Positions 49,645 to 62,300 of a DNA stretch of 64,000 nt are shown piece after piece. A program made the position numbers and the translations under genes. Origin of the DNA: Balamuthia mandrillaris (taxonomy: Eukaryota > Discosea > Longamoebia > Balamuthiidae); contig JAVKOQ010000029.1 in the NCBI GenBank assembly GCA_031835245.1, positions 62,001 through 126,000 on the forward strand, read 5' to 3'. Within the stretch, counting starts at the first letter, position 1. Every line of letters begins with the position of its first letter. Below the pieces are notes generated by a model. That model worked only from the letters and a program-made list of their open reading frames with translations. It did no database searches and had not been told where the DNA came from.

Positions 49645-51459
49645 TCATGATGTAGGCTTCTTGCTGAATACCTGAGGGGGGAGAGAGAGAGAGAGAGAGA
49701 AAGAGAAAGAGAGAGAGAGAAGATTGTGAGAGAAATGGACAGGAGAGAAGAGAAGCGTTTCGTACAATGACCATGGGCTTGCCTTTGAAAGTAAAACCGT
49801 GCACGTCATCCAAGGCCTGGGTGGCCATTTCCACAGAGGGAAAGGTGACGAACGCTTGTCCCTTCATTCGTCCTCGTTGAAACAGTTGTACCTCCAGTTC
49901 GCTGGGAATGGGTGCTAAATTTTAAAAAAGAGAACATTGGGTCTAATAGAACAAGGGTATGGTACCGTTGAGCATCCTCTCGAGAATCAAAATAGCGGCC
50001 AAAAACAAAGTAAAGGTCATCTTCCGCAACTCCTTTCGCCAAGTTTTTTATGTACAACCGTTGACTCGGCTCTCCTTTTGAGTAGTTGGAAAGCAACTTG
50101 GGATTCGAAGCGAGAATATCTACAGGCACATAAAACGTATTCAGTATTACTGTCAACATTACAATCGTGCAACCAAGAAATTCGGATTGTACCTTCAGCT
50201 GTAAGTTTGTTGGTCCTTAATTCTTCATCGGAGAGAGTTGCATTGCTGATGGGATGAGTGGATGGTGGCAGTTGGGCGGTGGCTGTTGGTTCGGTCGTGG
50301 TTGGGCTGCTGAGTACTATCTTCATAGTGGGCACTTCCTTTGCTGGAACATTGGAGGCAGCAGAGGAGGAAGCGCCCATGGATATGGTATGTACAGGATA
50401 TTTGGGCGGCGCGCCAACTTTATGTGTTCGTTGTTGCTGTTGTTGTGGTGCAGTTGCTGCTTCACCAACCGACTCTTCTGATGGTGGCTTGTGTCGCTTC
50501 TGCATGATCAAGAAGAGCAAGAAGAAAGAATAAGACAGAAAGAAGAAGAAAAATAAAGATAAAAAGGAAGAATGGAGAACGAAGAAAGAAGGAGAGAACG
50601 GAGAAAGGAGCAGAAGGCGAACCAAAGGAGGAGTGGGAGTAGGGGGGCCAAAGGGAGGAGGAAGGTTAAGCTTGTTCATGAGGTGGAGAACTTGGGTGTA
50701 GAATTTAGGTACTGCGATGAGAGCGTTCATGATATTGGTGATAATGGTGGTGTCTGGTGGTGGATATACGTATTTGAGGTCCGGTGGCGCTGGGTAGTCC
50801 ACTCTAGCGTTATGCGAACGAGAAGGGTAAGAAACAACATCCCTCATCCACCAGGAAAAAAATAAAATAAAATGAACAAAGAACAAGAGCACTAACCCTA
50901 GACTAGGAGCGATAGGTTCTGGTTCTCTCCTTCTCTTTTGGCTACGGCGGCTGTTGTTGTGTAGGGTGGAAGCCTCTTGTTCTCGGATGGTGTTTGCAGA
51001 GGAGGAACCGTCAGCAACCACTTGCTGTTGCTCCTTTGGAGGAGGCTCTGCGGTTGTGTTGGTTGAAGAAGAAGAAGAAGAAGCAGAGGGAGGAGAAGGT
51101 GCAGTTGCTGGTGTTACATCCAGGTGTCGGCCCCACAGTTCCAATGATTGCAGTTGCGGCACGATACGCCCCGCCACTTCCTCACTGGGAAACTCCACAA
51201 AGGCCCTTCCTCGCTATAGAGACAGCAAATGCAGTTGCCGGGGAGGCATCTCAGTTCAGCACTGCTAAGAAGAAAAACACTTGGCCAATGAGAGGGACAA
51301 AGACTCTTGCCGTACCAGTTTGCCTTCCATTACGCGCACTCGCGCAGCACCATAATGCCGCAACAGCTCCTCCACAGAAGCCTTGGAAAGGTGCACAGGA
51401 ATGTGCTTCACCAGAAAGCAACAGCCAGCAACTTCACGCTCACCATCTCCTCCTTGCAT
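49645..51459 (-). CDS. RNPC3: U11/U12 snRNP 65K protein (minor spliceosome), 7 exons
   Basis: Exons (high to low): 51459-51316, 51213-50897, 50803-50623, 50499-50193, 50119-49966, 49901-49766, 49671-49645, giving 421 residues. RRM1 starts CCFLVKHIPVHLSKASVEEL and continues RGRAFVEFPSEEVA. The family hallmark is in exon 3: YPPPDTTIITNIMNALIAVP, then VLHLMNKLNLPPPFGP. RRM2 has RLYIKNLAKGVAEDDLYFVF and GRMKGQAFVTFPS with GKPMVI. This arrangement (RRM, proline-rich linker with PPPFGP, RRM) is specific to U11/U12-65K, which bridges U11 and U12 snRNPs. It implies that the organism splices U12-type introns; two candidates lie within 12 kb. Confidence 0.92.
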
Positions 51460-51684: not shown

Positions 51685-54375
51685 TCAGAGTGCCATGCTC
51701 TCTCCTGCTCCGCTCGGACCCCCCAAGGAACTGCCCATGTTGACGTCAATGACGCACACCGTATTGTTCGAGAAGCAAGCAGCTACCTTGTCTCCCGTTG
51801 GATTCCAACACACCTCAAAAATGCCACCACTTCCTTTGTACGTTCGCACCAAGCTTCCATCCTTTTTGTTCGTTTGTTCGGTTTTGAAATATGAGAAGAA
51901 GAACGGTATGATTAAAAAAACAGAATAGAGCAGGAATGGGACATTACCTTCACCGACCAAATGTGCAGACATCTGTCAAAAGAACCACTGGCCAAATATT
52001 CTCCAGAAGGACTGAAAGCAACAGAATAAACGGGGTCCCTGTTCGTTGTTTTTTTTTTCCCTTTTGGTGAGCGCCTGTTTTTTTCGGGTAAGATGAAAAC
52101 ATAAAAGGTGAGATACTCACGTATGCTTAGTGAGACTATAAAGACATGTGCCTCTTTCTACTTCCCACAGCTTAATAGAGGCATCAAAGGAAGCACTGTT
52201 TTAAAAAAAAATGAGAAGATAAAGAATGAAAACCAAATACATACGTCAGTGAGCAGAAGCATTTTCTCACAAACTTAATAAAAAGAAAACAAAAAAGTAC
52301 CTCGCCAAAACGAGCGGGCGGTTAGGATTGTCGGATCCAATCCCCGTTGGGCTCCATTTGATGGTGTATATCTCTTTTGTGTGTTCCTCAAAGTCGTAAA
52401 GACACCGCTCTTGTTTTAGGCTCCATATCTATTACATGTCAGATGAACTGGCGTATCAAAGAAAAAAAATGGCGTAGTACCTTAGCTGTGAAGTCGTCTG
52501 AGCATGAAGCTAAAAGAGTTCCGCTTGGATCCCATTTAATTGCGTTTACTTCATCCTTAATAAAAAGCGAGAATGTAAAAGTAAGCAAGAGTTGTGAGTC
52601 AATCACATGAAGTAATGTATCTCATCTCAAACCTGATGTCCTTGGAAGCATTTTAGAGGTCTTGTTTTGCCTAGTTCGCATACATAAATCATTTTATCAG
52701 TCGAACACGTGGCAAAGCATATGTCGTTTTTCCAATCAACGTCCAGCGTTGGAGCTACAATAATAAAATCAGATGGCTGACGAAGAAAGAGAACAGAGGA
52801 AAGAAATACAAACCGCTGTGAAACTCAAATTGTTGCTTGACGTCACCAGTTTTGGCATCCCAAATAATGGCCGTTTTATCAACACTGCCACTGAGTAGAC
52901 TCGTGCCAGATTTATTCCACTTGAGCGAAAAGATAGGACCTTTGTGCTTGTTCAGAGTGTTCTTCAACACACCTTTTAACATGAAATCAAGCATTTAATG
53001 AGAATGAGCACAAATCTTTAGACTATTTTGAGGTCGTAAATGAAGAGAAAAGGTCATACCTGCTGACGTCCAAATTCGTGCAAGACCATCATAAGAGCCA
53101 GTAGCTAGCAAAGTGCCCTCAGTTGGAGAATACTGTTCCGTGATTTGTTGAGCAATGGTCTCGTCTCAGCAATGCTTCTCTTGCTCTCAAACAAACCATG
53201 ATAACATAAATTGAAGGAGTAAACGTACATTCCAATCTAGAGTGGTAACGTCCTTACTGCTTTCCTGGGCTTTGTTGAAATGCTTTAGTACCAATGGAGG
53301 CTCAAGTTCACTCGAGCCTACAGGCCCTGAAGGAATCTTCCATATTCTGGCTGTAGAGTCACCTGATCTAAACACCACAAGGTAAGCTAGTAAGCACCAC
53401 AAGCTTGAAGCTGTACTAACCCGGAAGCAAGCAAGGATTGGCCAGGAGCTGGGCTCCACGAGCATATGAACACCTGTAATAGCCAGTTAAAAGAGAGCTT
53501 CCTTATGGAACACATCAACAATGGTTGCAGTACCTCTGACGTGTGGCCTTCAAGTTTTAGCACTTGGTCTTCTGATATTTCAAGAGTGCTAGTTGGTTCC
53601 TCCACCACTTCCATTCGTAATAAAAGGTTAAGGTAATTACATGTAGCTTCTCAAACAAAGGAAAGATTAAATGACAGCATATGCAAAAGGATATCAGTCT
53701 CTGGTTTGGGTTTTTTGCGTTCGGTTTTGACGAAGCACTTGTGTGGCGAAGTGAGACTAAATGGGGCATCGCAGGGAATCTCTGTTCCATCCTGGTTTCA
53801 CGACCACACAATAAATAGAAGAGCAAGGGAGAAGCAAAAAAGAAATTCAGACAAGAGAGAGAAAGAGAGACGAGAGAGACGAGAGAGTGAGAAACGAGAA
53901 AGAAAGGGTGAGAAAAAACAATGGAGAGCTAGAAAAGAGAGCACGAGAGGAGATAACAACAGAAACAAAAAATAGAAGCGACAAGAGGAGGCCGAAAGAG
54001 ACAAGAAGCGAGAAAAAACGGGAGAGAAACAGAGAGACAGGCCAAAGGAGTGAGAGAATATACCTCGTTTACGTGGGTTTCAATCTGTTCATACTGGAGA
54101 CCTTTCTGTACATAGGAAATCAAAGCGCCAGGCTGCACTTCAGCTCCATTAAAGGCCTTGGCCACCAGGCTCTCATTGGCAAACGCAAAGGCAGAGTGCT
54201 GAAAGCCTTTTAAACAAACAAAAGAACGAACAAACTCAATACACCACTCCCAAAATCAAAACCAGCAGCCTGGCAATAAAACAAAAGAAGTAAAACAAAC
54301 ACAAAAAAATAAAGTACCTGACTCCAGCAAATACCTATAAATAAGAAAATTCAACTCATCGCTGGTGAACGACAT
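51685..54375 (-). CDS. TBL1: TBL1-like LisH/WD40 co-repressor subunit, 14 exons
   Basis: Exons (high to low): 54375-54318, 54206-54064, 53791-53695, 53616-53534, 53473-53421, 53367-53229, 53132-53060, 52973-52815, 52754-52633, 52555-52481, 52428-52301, 52195-52121, 52038-51948, 51861-51685, giving 490 residues. The LisH motif is [16 protein letters not shown], followed by an F-box-like section. Eight WD repeats follow, e.g. [65 protein letters not shown] and [19 protein letters not shown]. They align block for block with animal TBL1 of NCoR/SMRT complexes. Intron 3 (53617-53694) has U12 AT-AC signals. Confidence 0.9.
53617..53694 (-). other. U12-type AT-AC intron in TBL1
   Basis: On the coding strand the intron begins ATATCCTTTT (exact U12 5' site), has TACCTTAACC as branch site (53626-53635, one mismatch to TCCTTAAC) and ends TTATTAC. 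The branch A to 3' end distance is about 11 nt. Removing it joins ...PKPETG to MEVVEEPT in frame. No GT-AG alternative keeps the frame. Confidence 0.85.
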
Positions 54376-59301: not shown

Positions 59302-62300
59302 ATGGAAAGTGGAGGTGGAGGGGTCTACGTGCATGCGCCTGCAGGTGAACAAGAATGGTACACGCTGCTGAGCTCCTTTCGCGAGTCGGCAGAGAAGCGC
59401 CGGGCCGTCATGCGGGAATACACCAAGGAGGCGCTGCTCTCCCACATGCTGGCCGCCATCTGCAAGGACGTGCCCGAGGCCGACCCCACCGTTGCTGCTT
59501 TTTCTTCCGCCGCAGCCACTGCTGGTGGCGGCGGGGGTGCTTCCTTCGTGGAGGATAGCAGCAACACGCTTGTTGCTGAGCTGCGCTACAATTTGCTCGT
59601 CTTTTTGCAGGAGAACGTTCGTTTCTTTATCGAAGGACAAGAGTCAAGGTCCTCTTTCTCCTCCCTTCTTGTTGTTCTTGTCTTATGTTGTATTATGTTG
59701 TTGTTGTTGTTGTCTTATGTTGTTGTCTTATGTTGTCTTATGTTGTTGTTCTTGTGCTTGTGCTTGTGCTTGTGCTTGTGCTTGTGCTTGTGCTTGTGCT
59801 TGTGCTTGTGCTTGTGCTTGTGCCTTGTGCTTGTGCTTGTGCTTGTGCTTGTGCTTGTGCTTGTGCTTGTGCTTGTGCTTGTGCTTGTGCTTGTGCTTGT
59901 GCTTGTTCTTCTTGTTCTTCTTCTTGTTCTTCTTGTTCTTCTTGTTCTTCTCTTGTTCTTCTTCCTTCTTTTCCGTTGCTTACAACAGTTGTTTTGAGCA
60001 CAGGCTAGACATAGTGTTCAACAATCTAAGCAAAATAATATCCTCTTCGAGCACCTCAGCAGCGGCCATGTTCCTCAAAGGGCACGTGCTGGCCACCCTG
60101 ACGACCATTCTTCTGGAGGAGCAGGAGCTGGTGCTGCTGCAACGGCCCACTCTGCTGGAGAGCTTCGTGGAGAGGCTGCTGGAGCTCTCCTCTCGCGTGA
60201 ACGTCTCCGCGGAGCGCCACCTTCGCGCCATGGCCTGCCATTGCTTGGAGGAGCTGGAGCTGGCGCACCCCTGCCTGCTGCAGGGCTACCTGGCTTACTT
60301 CTTCTCCTTTGGTCAGGAGGAGACGACCCATGCTGCTCAAGCCTACAATGACCTCTTTGCCACCACGCTGCTCCACAAGACGGATTCTCTCCTTGTTCAA
60401 CAGCACCAGCACCACCCTTCTTCTTCGTCTTCTTCCTCGTCTTTATCAGCATCAACAACGTCACCACCATCAACAGTGACGGCTGTTAGTTCGCCTTCTT
60501 TAACGTCATCTACAACAATAACAGGCGGATTCCTGCTGCAGAGCAACGCTGACCTCAAGTCGTTTACCATTCCTATCACCATGCACTTAAGTGCTCCTTC
60601 GCTCTCTGCTCTGTCACTAGATCCATCTACCCCCACCAGTAGCAACAGAAAAAATTCACCAAGCAACAAGTTACGCCATAGTGGAGCGATGCCAGAGGCA
60701 TGGCACAAAGAAGCGAGGCGTTGTGTCTCGTTGTTGGTGGACAATGTAACAAGACTAAGCGATTATGCTCTCCTCTCCCTGGCTGCAAAGCTGGTACTCT
60801 TCATCCAACAAACGAAGCTGTCGAAAGACGTCTTCAAGCACCACTTTTTTTGCTTTCTCTACACCGACTCGGCGTTGCTCTTCCATCTCGTCATAATGCT
60901 ATTTCTGTCTCTACCTGATATCTTTGAGCCATCCGATCACTTTCTTCTTCTATCGCGGTTGTTGCACCTTGTTGATGAACCTACAATGTACCTCTTTTCT
61001 ACCTTACTTCTTTATTTGTTCTCCTTAATTCTCTTTGTTTTGCTTTGTTCTTGTGATACTCACGTTAGTTCCTCGACAGACCGATACAAAAGAGGACCCT
61101 GTTTTTGCAGTGGTTACGTACCATGCCTCGCTTGCCTCTTTCAAACTCATCAGATGGAGAGCAACCGGCTGCTCCATTGCTGTACCCTTTCTATTCGCTG
61201 TTCTATCCTTCCGTTTTTGACGAATGGGACATAAAGGAAGCTAAGTTATATCCTTTTTTCTTATCCATGTATTGCTCTATCCGTCTTTTCTTTCTTTCTT
61301 CCCCCCCCCCCTTCTCATCCTTCGTTTTAAACTTCAATCGTTTCGAATCGATTCTTCTTAACCCTACTGATAATACGTTGGCCTTGTGCTCTTGCTTCAA
61401 GACGGGAGTAGCTCCTCCACCAAGGTATTGGAGCTTAATGGATTGCCAGTGTGCAGCTTATGCCTCCTTTACTAACTTTTGTTCCATCATACCATTATAA
61501 CCGTCGCAGATCAATATTAAGCTGTCTGACTTGCCTCCAAGAATTCTGGTACTTTTCTGCGAATGCGAAACCTACTCGCATAGTCTTTCGTGTGTTACAG
61601 CGAATGCTGCTGCAATTTCCAGAGCTGTTTCCCCAACTCTATGAGTATGCTCCTCTTTTTCGTCTTTCGTCTTATAACCCTTATTCTCACTCCTGCCCAG
61701 CTATCTATTGCGGATGATGTTGGAAGCACCAAAATTTCTGCCGAACATAATCGAGTTGGTTGACGCATTGGAGCGGCATCATACTGAAGATAGTGCCTCA
61801 TCTCATCACCACAACCACCAACAAAGAGGAAGCAGGACTGAGAAGAAGACCAAAGAAGGCGCTGTAACCAGACAATCGTTAAGAAGAAAGTCGTCCTCCA
61901 CTCCACCAAAAGGAACCACTTCCAAAGAAAACAAAGCCTTGTCACTGCTCATATCCTTCGAGTCAGTGCTGCGTGATCTTCCAGACCTACATACGCACGA
62001 CCTGTCCAACTATCTGCCTATGATCCAAAGGATAGCAGCAGTGCCAACCATCAACCCTGCAGCTCTTCTGGACCGCATCACTCGCTATCTGAAATACACC
62101 AGGTGGCAAGGAGAGGCTCATCAATGGGTGGTCGGTAACGACATCCTCTCCATCTGTCGCTGCATGCTGCTGCATCATCCTGCTAGACGCATATTCCAGC
62201 CGCTGGGCGACCTTCTCCTCTTCTGCACTCGTCACTTTGACGACGTGGACATACGAGACAGAGCCCACTTTTATTATCAACTTTTGACGCATGTTTCTGC

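Follow-up and report, generated by a model that had tools for sequence, protein, structure and literature searches.

A 78-nt stretch of Balamuthia mandrillaris DNA is, with a probability of about 0.95, an ordinary U12-type AT-AC intron of the TBL1/TBL1XR1 gene. It lies within a 64-kb window, meaning the whole stretch of DNA that was analyzed (64,000 nucleotides). The case for this intron is carried by the combination of its splicing motifs and by an exon junction found in a deposited Balamuthia protein. The features concerned are as follows:

51685..54375, minus strand: TBL1/TBL1XR1 coding region, 14 exons, 490 aa, spliced by hand and assigned by homology
53695..53791, minus strand: TBL1 exon 3, from the gene model
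53617..53694, minus strand: U12-type AT-AC intron 3 of TBL1, 78 nt, phase 1, from sequence, frame, gene model and deposited-protein junction
53685..53694, minus strand: its 5' splice site ATATCCTTTT, read from the sequence
53627..53635, minus strand: its branch site TACCTTAAC; the last base of the intron follows the presumed branch A by 11 nt
53534..53616, minus strand: TBL1 exon 4, from the gene model

The other 12 introns of the gene are all GT-AG and 52–272 nt long. The WD40 part of the encoded protein matched TBL1XR1 chains in the PDB with E-values of 2.8e-157 and 4e-157, and the closest protein was the NCBI entry "Transducin (beta)-like 1 X-linked receptor 1, variant 2 [Balamuthia mandrillaris]" (443 aa), for which LisH (PF08513) is listed among the Pfam domains. 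These matches support a gene product with a LisH N-terminus and a TBL1-type WD40 propeller, and hence its assignment to TBL1/TBL1XR1. The deposited protein is identical to our 490-aa gene model over its first 432 residues, spanning ...KPKPETGMEVVEEP... at the AT-AC junction. Since it crosses the exact 53695/53616 junction, the public annotation already splices the TBL1 AT-AC intron. Farther downstream, the deposited "variant 2" runs into the last GT-AG intron (intron 13, minus strand, 51862-51947) and ends with 11 residues of readthrough up to the stop of that intron. That the annotation kept GT-AG intron 13 yet removed AT-AC intron 3 suggests the use of transcript evidence, although the deposited protein may itself be a prediction.

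Read on the minus strand, the intron has the letters ATATCCTTTT...TTACCTTAACCTTTTATTAC with AT and AC termini. At offset 61 begins CCTTAAC, whose second A is 11 nt away from the last base. The branch sites of U12 introns follow the consensus TTCCTTAAC and are usually placed about 10–15 nt before the 3' splice site; TACCTTAAC departs from this consensus by one mismatch, at the second base, and its distance is 11 nt. The coordinates, length, termini and branch-site distance given in the preliminary description were thus exact on the minus strand. At the other end of the intron, ATATCCTTTT satisfies RTATCCTT, which is quoted as the rule for U12-type 5' splice sites in PMC2846911. Single U12 motifs are weak evidence and their combination is stronger. 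RTATCCTT alone occurred 8 times in the 64-kb window versus 2.38 ± 1.72 expected, and the textbook branch core TCCTTAAC occurred twice versus 2.46 expected, neither time inside the TBL1 AT-AC intron, which carries ACCTTAAC instead.

The length of the intron is divisible by 3, and its retention leads to an in-frame TGA 14 codons in; a retained intron 3 would cut the TBL1 protein short ahead of the WD40 propeller. The preliminary description had found no in-frame join of the exons other than by removing these 78 nt, which overstates the case. Between the start of exon 3 and the end of exon 4, the frame is kept by 14 GT-AG, 23 GC-AG, 35 AT-AC (the TBL1 intron included) and 46 AT-AG pairs at least 30 nt apart. 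Reading frame alone therefore allows junctions besides 53695/53616 and is not decisive, so that the motif combination and the deposited junction make the case.

The genome also holds genes for minor-spliceosome RNAs. U11 snRNA was found at two loci (62.6 bits each, Rfam cut-off 39) with the 5' end UAAAAGGGUU, for which a pairing of −7.9 kcal/mol with the TBL1 AT-AC 5' splice site was predicted. U12 snRNA was likewise found at two loci (80 and 79.5 bits, cut-off 53) and includes the stretch GAGUAAGGAA; its predicted pairing with the TBL1 branch site comprises 5 pairs at −4.9 kcal/mol, compared to −10.5 for the consensus. Two U6atac loci scored 84.3 and 83.2 bits with the full model covered (Rfam RF00619, cut-off 33). 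In the paired snRNA loci the flanks are 86–98% identical, and such near-identical flanks suggest a partly duplicated assembly.

A search for U4atac at E below 0.001 returned only three hits, each with 44.2 bits and thus under the cut-off of 53. These loci are mutually 92–96% identical where alignable and were set aside as major U4; the one checked (L035) scored 98.3 bits as U4. Another locus, L228 (contig C8, 13954-14119; L228:1501-1666), scored 27.4 bits, which is also below the Rfam cut-off of 53, and a second place on C8 scored 27.0 bits. Folded together with U6atac, L228 is predicted to adopt the expected two-stem form. The predicted interaction amounted to −18.1 versus −6.3 ± 2.6 in 100 shuffles (best −14.2), and versus −5.0 for major U4 with U6atac. 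These predictions make L228 a candidate for a diverged U4atac. On contig C8, some ATATCCTTTT places and the U4atac candidate are each present twice on opposite strands; this points to either an inverted duplication or palindromic assembly.

The next gene downstream of TBL1 also bears on minor splicing:

49645..51459, minus strand: probable U11/U12-65K (RNPC3/RBM40) gene, 7 exons, 6 introns all GT-AG

Its product matched RNA-binding protein 40 in the PDB best (3egn; E = 8.6e-24 over residues 301–418, and also 9.7e-24), followed by RNA-binding protein 41 (7e-18); this match supports an RRM of the RBM40 type at the C-terminus. A second, N-terminal RRM would fall to residues 3–80, the stretch that scored best against nucleolin, with a whole-sequence E-value of 3.8e-08 and no single stretch significant. 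RBM40 is the same protein as RNPC3/65K of the minor spliceosome, and the neighboring gene probably encodes U11/U12-65K. The presence of a minor spliceosome in this genome is supported by the genes for U11, U12 and U6atac, by the U4atac candidate L228 and by the probable 65K gene.

We infer that these parts act on the TBL1 AT-AC intron. Following the known pathway, AUCCUUUU at its 5' splice site would base-pair with U11 snRNA, and the CCUUAA branch site would do so with U12 snRNA; U4atac/U6atac.U5 would join next, and the 5' splice site would pass to U6atac. The branch A located 11 nt upstream of AC would then attack the 5' splice site, and exons 3 and 4 would be joined in phase 1.

One part of this machinery departs from the known pattern. 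Pairing with UCCUU in the 5' splice site falls to the AAGGA of U6atac, and the title of a 1998 study by Incorvaia and Padgett calls this pairing required in vivo. Both Balamuthia U6atac copies (L011:1501-1628, minus strand, and L012:1501-1629, plus strand) have UGAGCCGAGAGAAGG where the Rfam consensus has UGAAAGGAGAGAAGG, the variant stretch being GCCGAGAGAAGG and its canonical counterpart AAGGAGAGAAGG. Thus, while both copies agree with the RF00619 consensus in retaining GUGUU, GAGAGAAGGUUAGCA and the terminal U run, they differ from it in having GCCGA instead of AAGGA (GCC for AAG) as 5' splice-site element. Against the TBL1 5' splice site, GCCGA has mismatches at +6 and +7, and the pairing between U6atac and the TBL1 intron is predicted to weaken from −7.4 to −4.8 (14 nt) or −5.6 (21 nt) and to form only in a different register. 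Across the assembly, no place within one mismatch of AAGGAGAGAAGGTTAGCA was found that could represent a canonical U6atac copy, and compensating 5' splice sites of the form RTATCGGCTT were not enriched (74 versus 67). Elsewhere U6atac looks intact, as does the helix that it is predicted to form with the U4atac candidate, and upstream blocks are common to both copies; hence, the U6atac copies do not look dead. A tentative reading, which we consider rather less than an even bet, is that the U6atac of Balamuthia has lost AAGGA, that 5' splice sites such as the one in TBL1 have stayed canonical (AUAUCCUUUU) and not changed to match, and that the hand-over from U11 to U6atac would proceed with fewer pairs, in another register or with the help of proteins. 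Alternatively, GCCGA may be explained by a misassembly, by a canonical copy left unassembled, or by another pairing register.

The U6atac variant also counts in favor of excision of the TBL1 AT-AC intron by the major (U2) spliceosome, a rare event that we regard as very improbable here. Both U6atac copies lack the consensus 5' splice-site element, the pairing of the branch site with U12 is weak, and AT-AC termini alone are insufficient to define the U12 class. However, ATATCCTTTT is largely complementary to the 5' end of the genome's U11 (−7.9 kcal/mol), and U2-type AT-AC introns have, to our knowledge, neither such a 5' site nor a CCTTAAC branch site. Slightly less probable still is that the major spliceosome uses a cryptic GT-AG pair such as GTTTGAGAAG...GGTGGAG (57 nt), which would make the AT-AC signals coincidental: 14 GT-AG pairs fit the frame and intron 9 of the gene model uses a donor starting with GTTTGAGA, but none of these 14 pairs between the start of exon 3 and the end of exon 4 was flagged with a GT[AG][AGT]G donor, the acceptor of the example is purine-rich, and the AT-AC junction is the one found in the deposited Balamuthia protein. 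The assignment as a U12-type AT-AC intron in TBL1, as proposed in the preliminary description, is thus upheld by the splicing signals, the TBL1XR1 match (2.8e-157), the deposited-protein junction and the minor snRNA genes.

The 64.8-Mb assembly contains 376 places with ATATCCTTTT (108 for the reversed control) and 296 places with GTATCCTTTT (155 for the reversed control). These raw 10-mer counts were dropped as a sign of several hundred U12 introns, because most of the sampled sites had no branch site above the threshold, and branch scoring against shuffles was used instead. The sample consisted of the 100 listed of the 376 ATATCCTTTT places and, from the list of the 296 GTATCCTTTT places, of the first 70; after near-identical copies had been filtered out, 99 and 68 remained, respectively. 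The filter was loose and kept both members of L054/L055 and L053/L056, which look like copies, so that one AT-AC case was counted twice. Sites passed with a branch score of at least 9.3 and AC 9–17 nt past the branch A, and first-order Markov shuffles served as controls. As 9.3 is the TBL1 intron's own score, the threshold was set post hoc, and this intron ties for the lowest score among the 21 that passed.

Further U12-like introns in the genome, on which the preliminary description had made its reading depend, were found in this sample. At the 9.3 threshold, a branch site and AC followed ATATCCTTTT at 21 of 99 sites (shuffles 3.4 ± 1.7, maximum 9), and a branch site and AG followed GTATCCTTTT at 10 of 68 sites (shuffles 3.2 ± 1.6, maximum 8). 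With a threshold of 9.0, the numbers were 23/99 for AT-AC (6.3 ± 2.5, maximum 14) and 15/68 for GT-AG (5.7 ± 2.2, maximum 12). Cross pairings at 9.3 were observed as well: AT...AG at 9/99 sites (shuffles 3.8 ± 2.0) and GT...AC at 10/68 (shuffles 3.4 ± 1.8), the latter equaling the 10/68 with AG. Thus, GT sites do not separate AG from AC and AT...AG exceeds its shuffles, which makes the share of AT-AC soft. Many of the cross pairings (5 of 9 AT...AG and 6 of 10 GT...AC) reuse branch sites already listed with AC or AG, but not all of them do, so the branch site is better resolved than the 3' dinucleotide. In L053/L056 on contig C8, ATATCCTTTT is followed by TTCTTTAAC with AG 13 nt past the branch A in both copies, a possible AT-AG minor intron. 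As a rough estimate, extrapolation gives about 65 AT-AC and 30–40 GT-AG introns with the strict motif in the 64.8-Mb, partly duplicated assembly, which is larger than the 44.2-Mb draft reported in PMC4665321.

Anchoring on branch sites gave no sign of a large hidden set of such introns, which speaks against a very U12-rich genome. The anchor TTCCTTAACTTT occurred at 28 places, fewer than its reversed control (51). In the 320 nt upstream of these 28 loci, a complete U12 5' splice site was absent throughout; the closest approach was the partial site ATATCTCTTT in L191. The anchor TTCCTTGACTTT occurred at 35 places (42 for the control), two of which lie inside introns already sampled (L006 and L184). 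For a check of coding potential, 33 high scorers were joined in their longest frame, and 8 familiar-looking fragments were trimmed by eye and compared to Pfam. Seven of these 8 fragments, which were picked from the 33 and do not represent a rate, matched a Pfam family above its cut-off with the match crossing the junction: ubiquitin-conjugating enzyme, phosphorylase, RasGEF_N and CPSF_A (27.6 versus a cut-off of 27) among AT-AC candidates, and protein kinase, SCP2 and strumpellin among GT-AG candidates. The eighth fragment (Hydrolase, 19.8) stayed below its cut-off of 26.4, and several of the remaining 25 joined candidates look poor (e.g., L003, L021, L122).

The window contains a second candidate, which we assume to be the "first" AT-AC intron of the preliminary description:

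61248..61376, plus strand: AT-AC intron candidate in an AP5B1-like gene, 129 nt, phase 2, with CTTCTTAAC and AC and an in-frame join

The exons downstream of it matched AP5B1_middle (8.5e-22) and AP5B1_barrel (3.1e-08) in Pfam. Across the intron itself, a joined 58-aa fragment aligned to positions 121–158 of AP5B1_middle with an E-value of only 0.34, and neither a longer joined version (107 aa) nor the unspliced version had a Pfam match up to E = 1. Searches for AP5B1 homologues found none (7,993 candidates scored in one and 624 candidates in another). Judged from its motifs and frame, 61248-61376 is likely an AT-AC intron, albeit less well proven than the one in TBL1. The preliminary description had stressed the high density of two AT-AC introns in one window, but this is a weak argument. 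According to a Poisson estimate based on the sample, about 0.06 strict AT-AC introns are expected per 64 kb and two in one window with a frequency of about 0.2%, i.e., in about 2 of some 1,010 windows; genome-wide, such a pair is within chance and unremarkable.

Acanthamoeba castellanii is an amoeba that is regarded as a relative of Balamuthia. For this organism, PMC2846911 lists three AT-AC and two GT-AG U12 introns (citing Russell et al.) and U11, U12 and U6atac RNAs, and it also names a lipid transfer protein with a U12 intron. At Balamuthia locus L150, a GT-AG U12-like intron lies in an SCP2 sterol-transfer domain. According to PMC10639083, the Acanthamoeba introns classed as minor number only 12; the standard test found none of them conserved in human or Protostelium, and one position was common with human if alignment quality was disregarded. 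Our sample points to more minor introns in Balamuthia than these 12, with the caveat that the methods differ. AT-AC introns are also common in Blastocystis sp. subtype 1, where the same paper gives 196 of 253 minor introns (77%); the corresponding figure for Balamuthia, very roughly 60–70% of full-ATCCTTTT introns, holds for the strict 10-base motif only and should not be read as a share for the whole genome. In Blastocystis, the mean length of minor introns is just under 42 bp (PMC10639083), whereas the TBL1 AT-AC intron has 78 nt. Further literature used comprised PMC8199999 and PMC10228655. Literature searches for Balamuthia together with U12/spliceosome, minor intron or U6atac found no description, and the TBL1 AT-AC intron is thus already implied by the public annotation yet not described in the literature searched.

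The TBL1 intron adds one more solid AT-AC case. Taken with the loci of the sample, it points to a minor splicing system in Balamuthia whose AT-AC introns seem no less common than its GT-AG introns. The U6atac variant would matter more than the TBL1 intron itself. If the proposed loss of AAGGA is true, Balamuthia would be a natural exception to the pairing of U6atac with the 5' splice site that is regarded as required, and if both U6atac copies are really used, the need for this helix in minor splicing would become testable.
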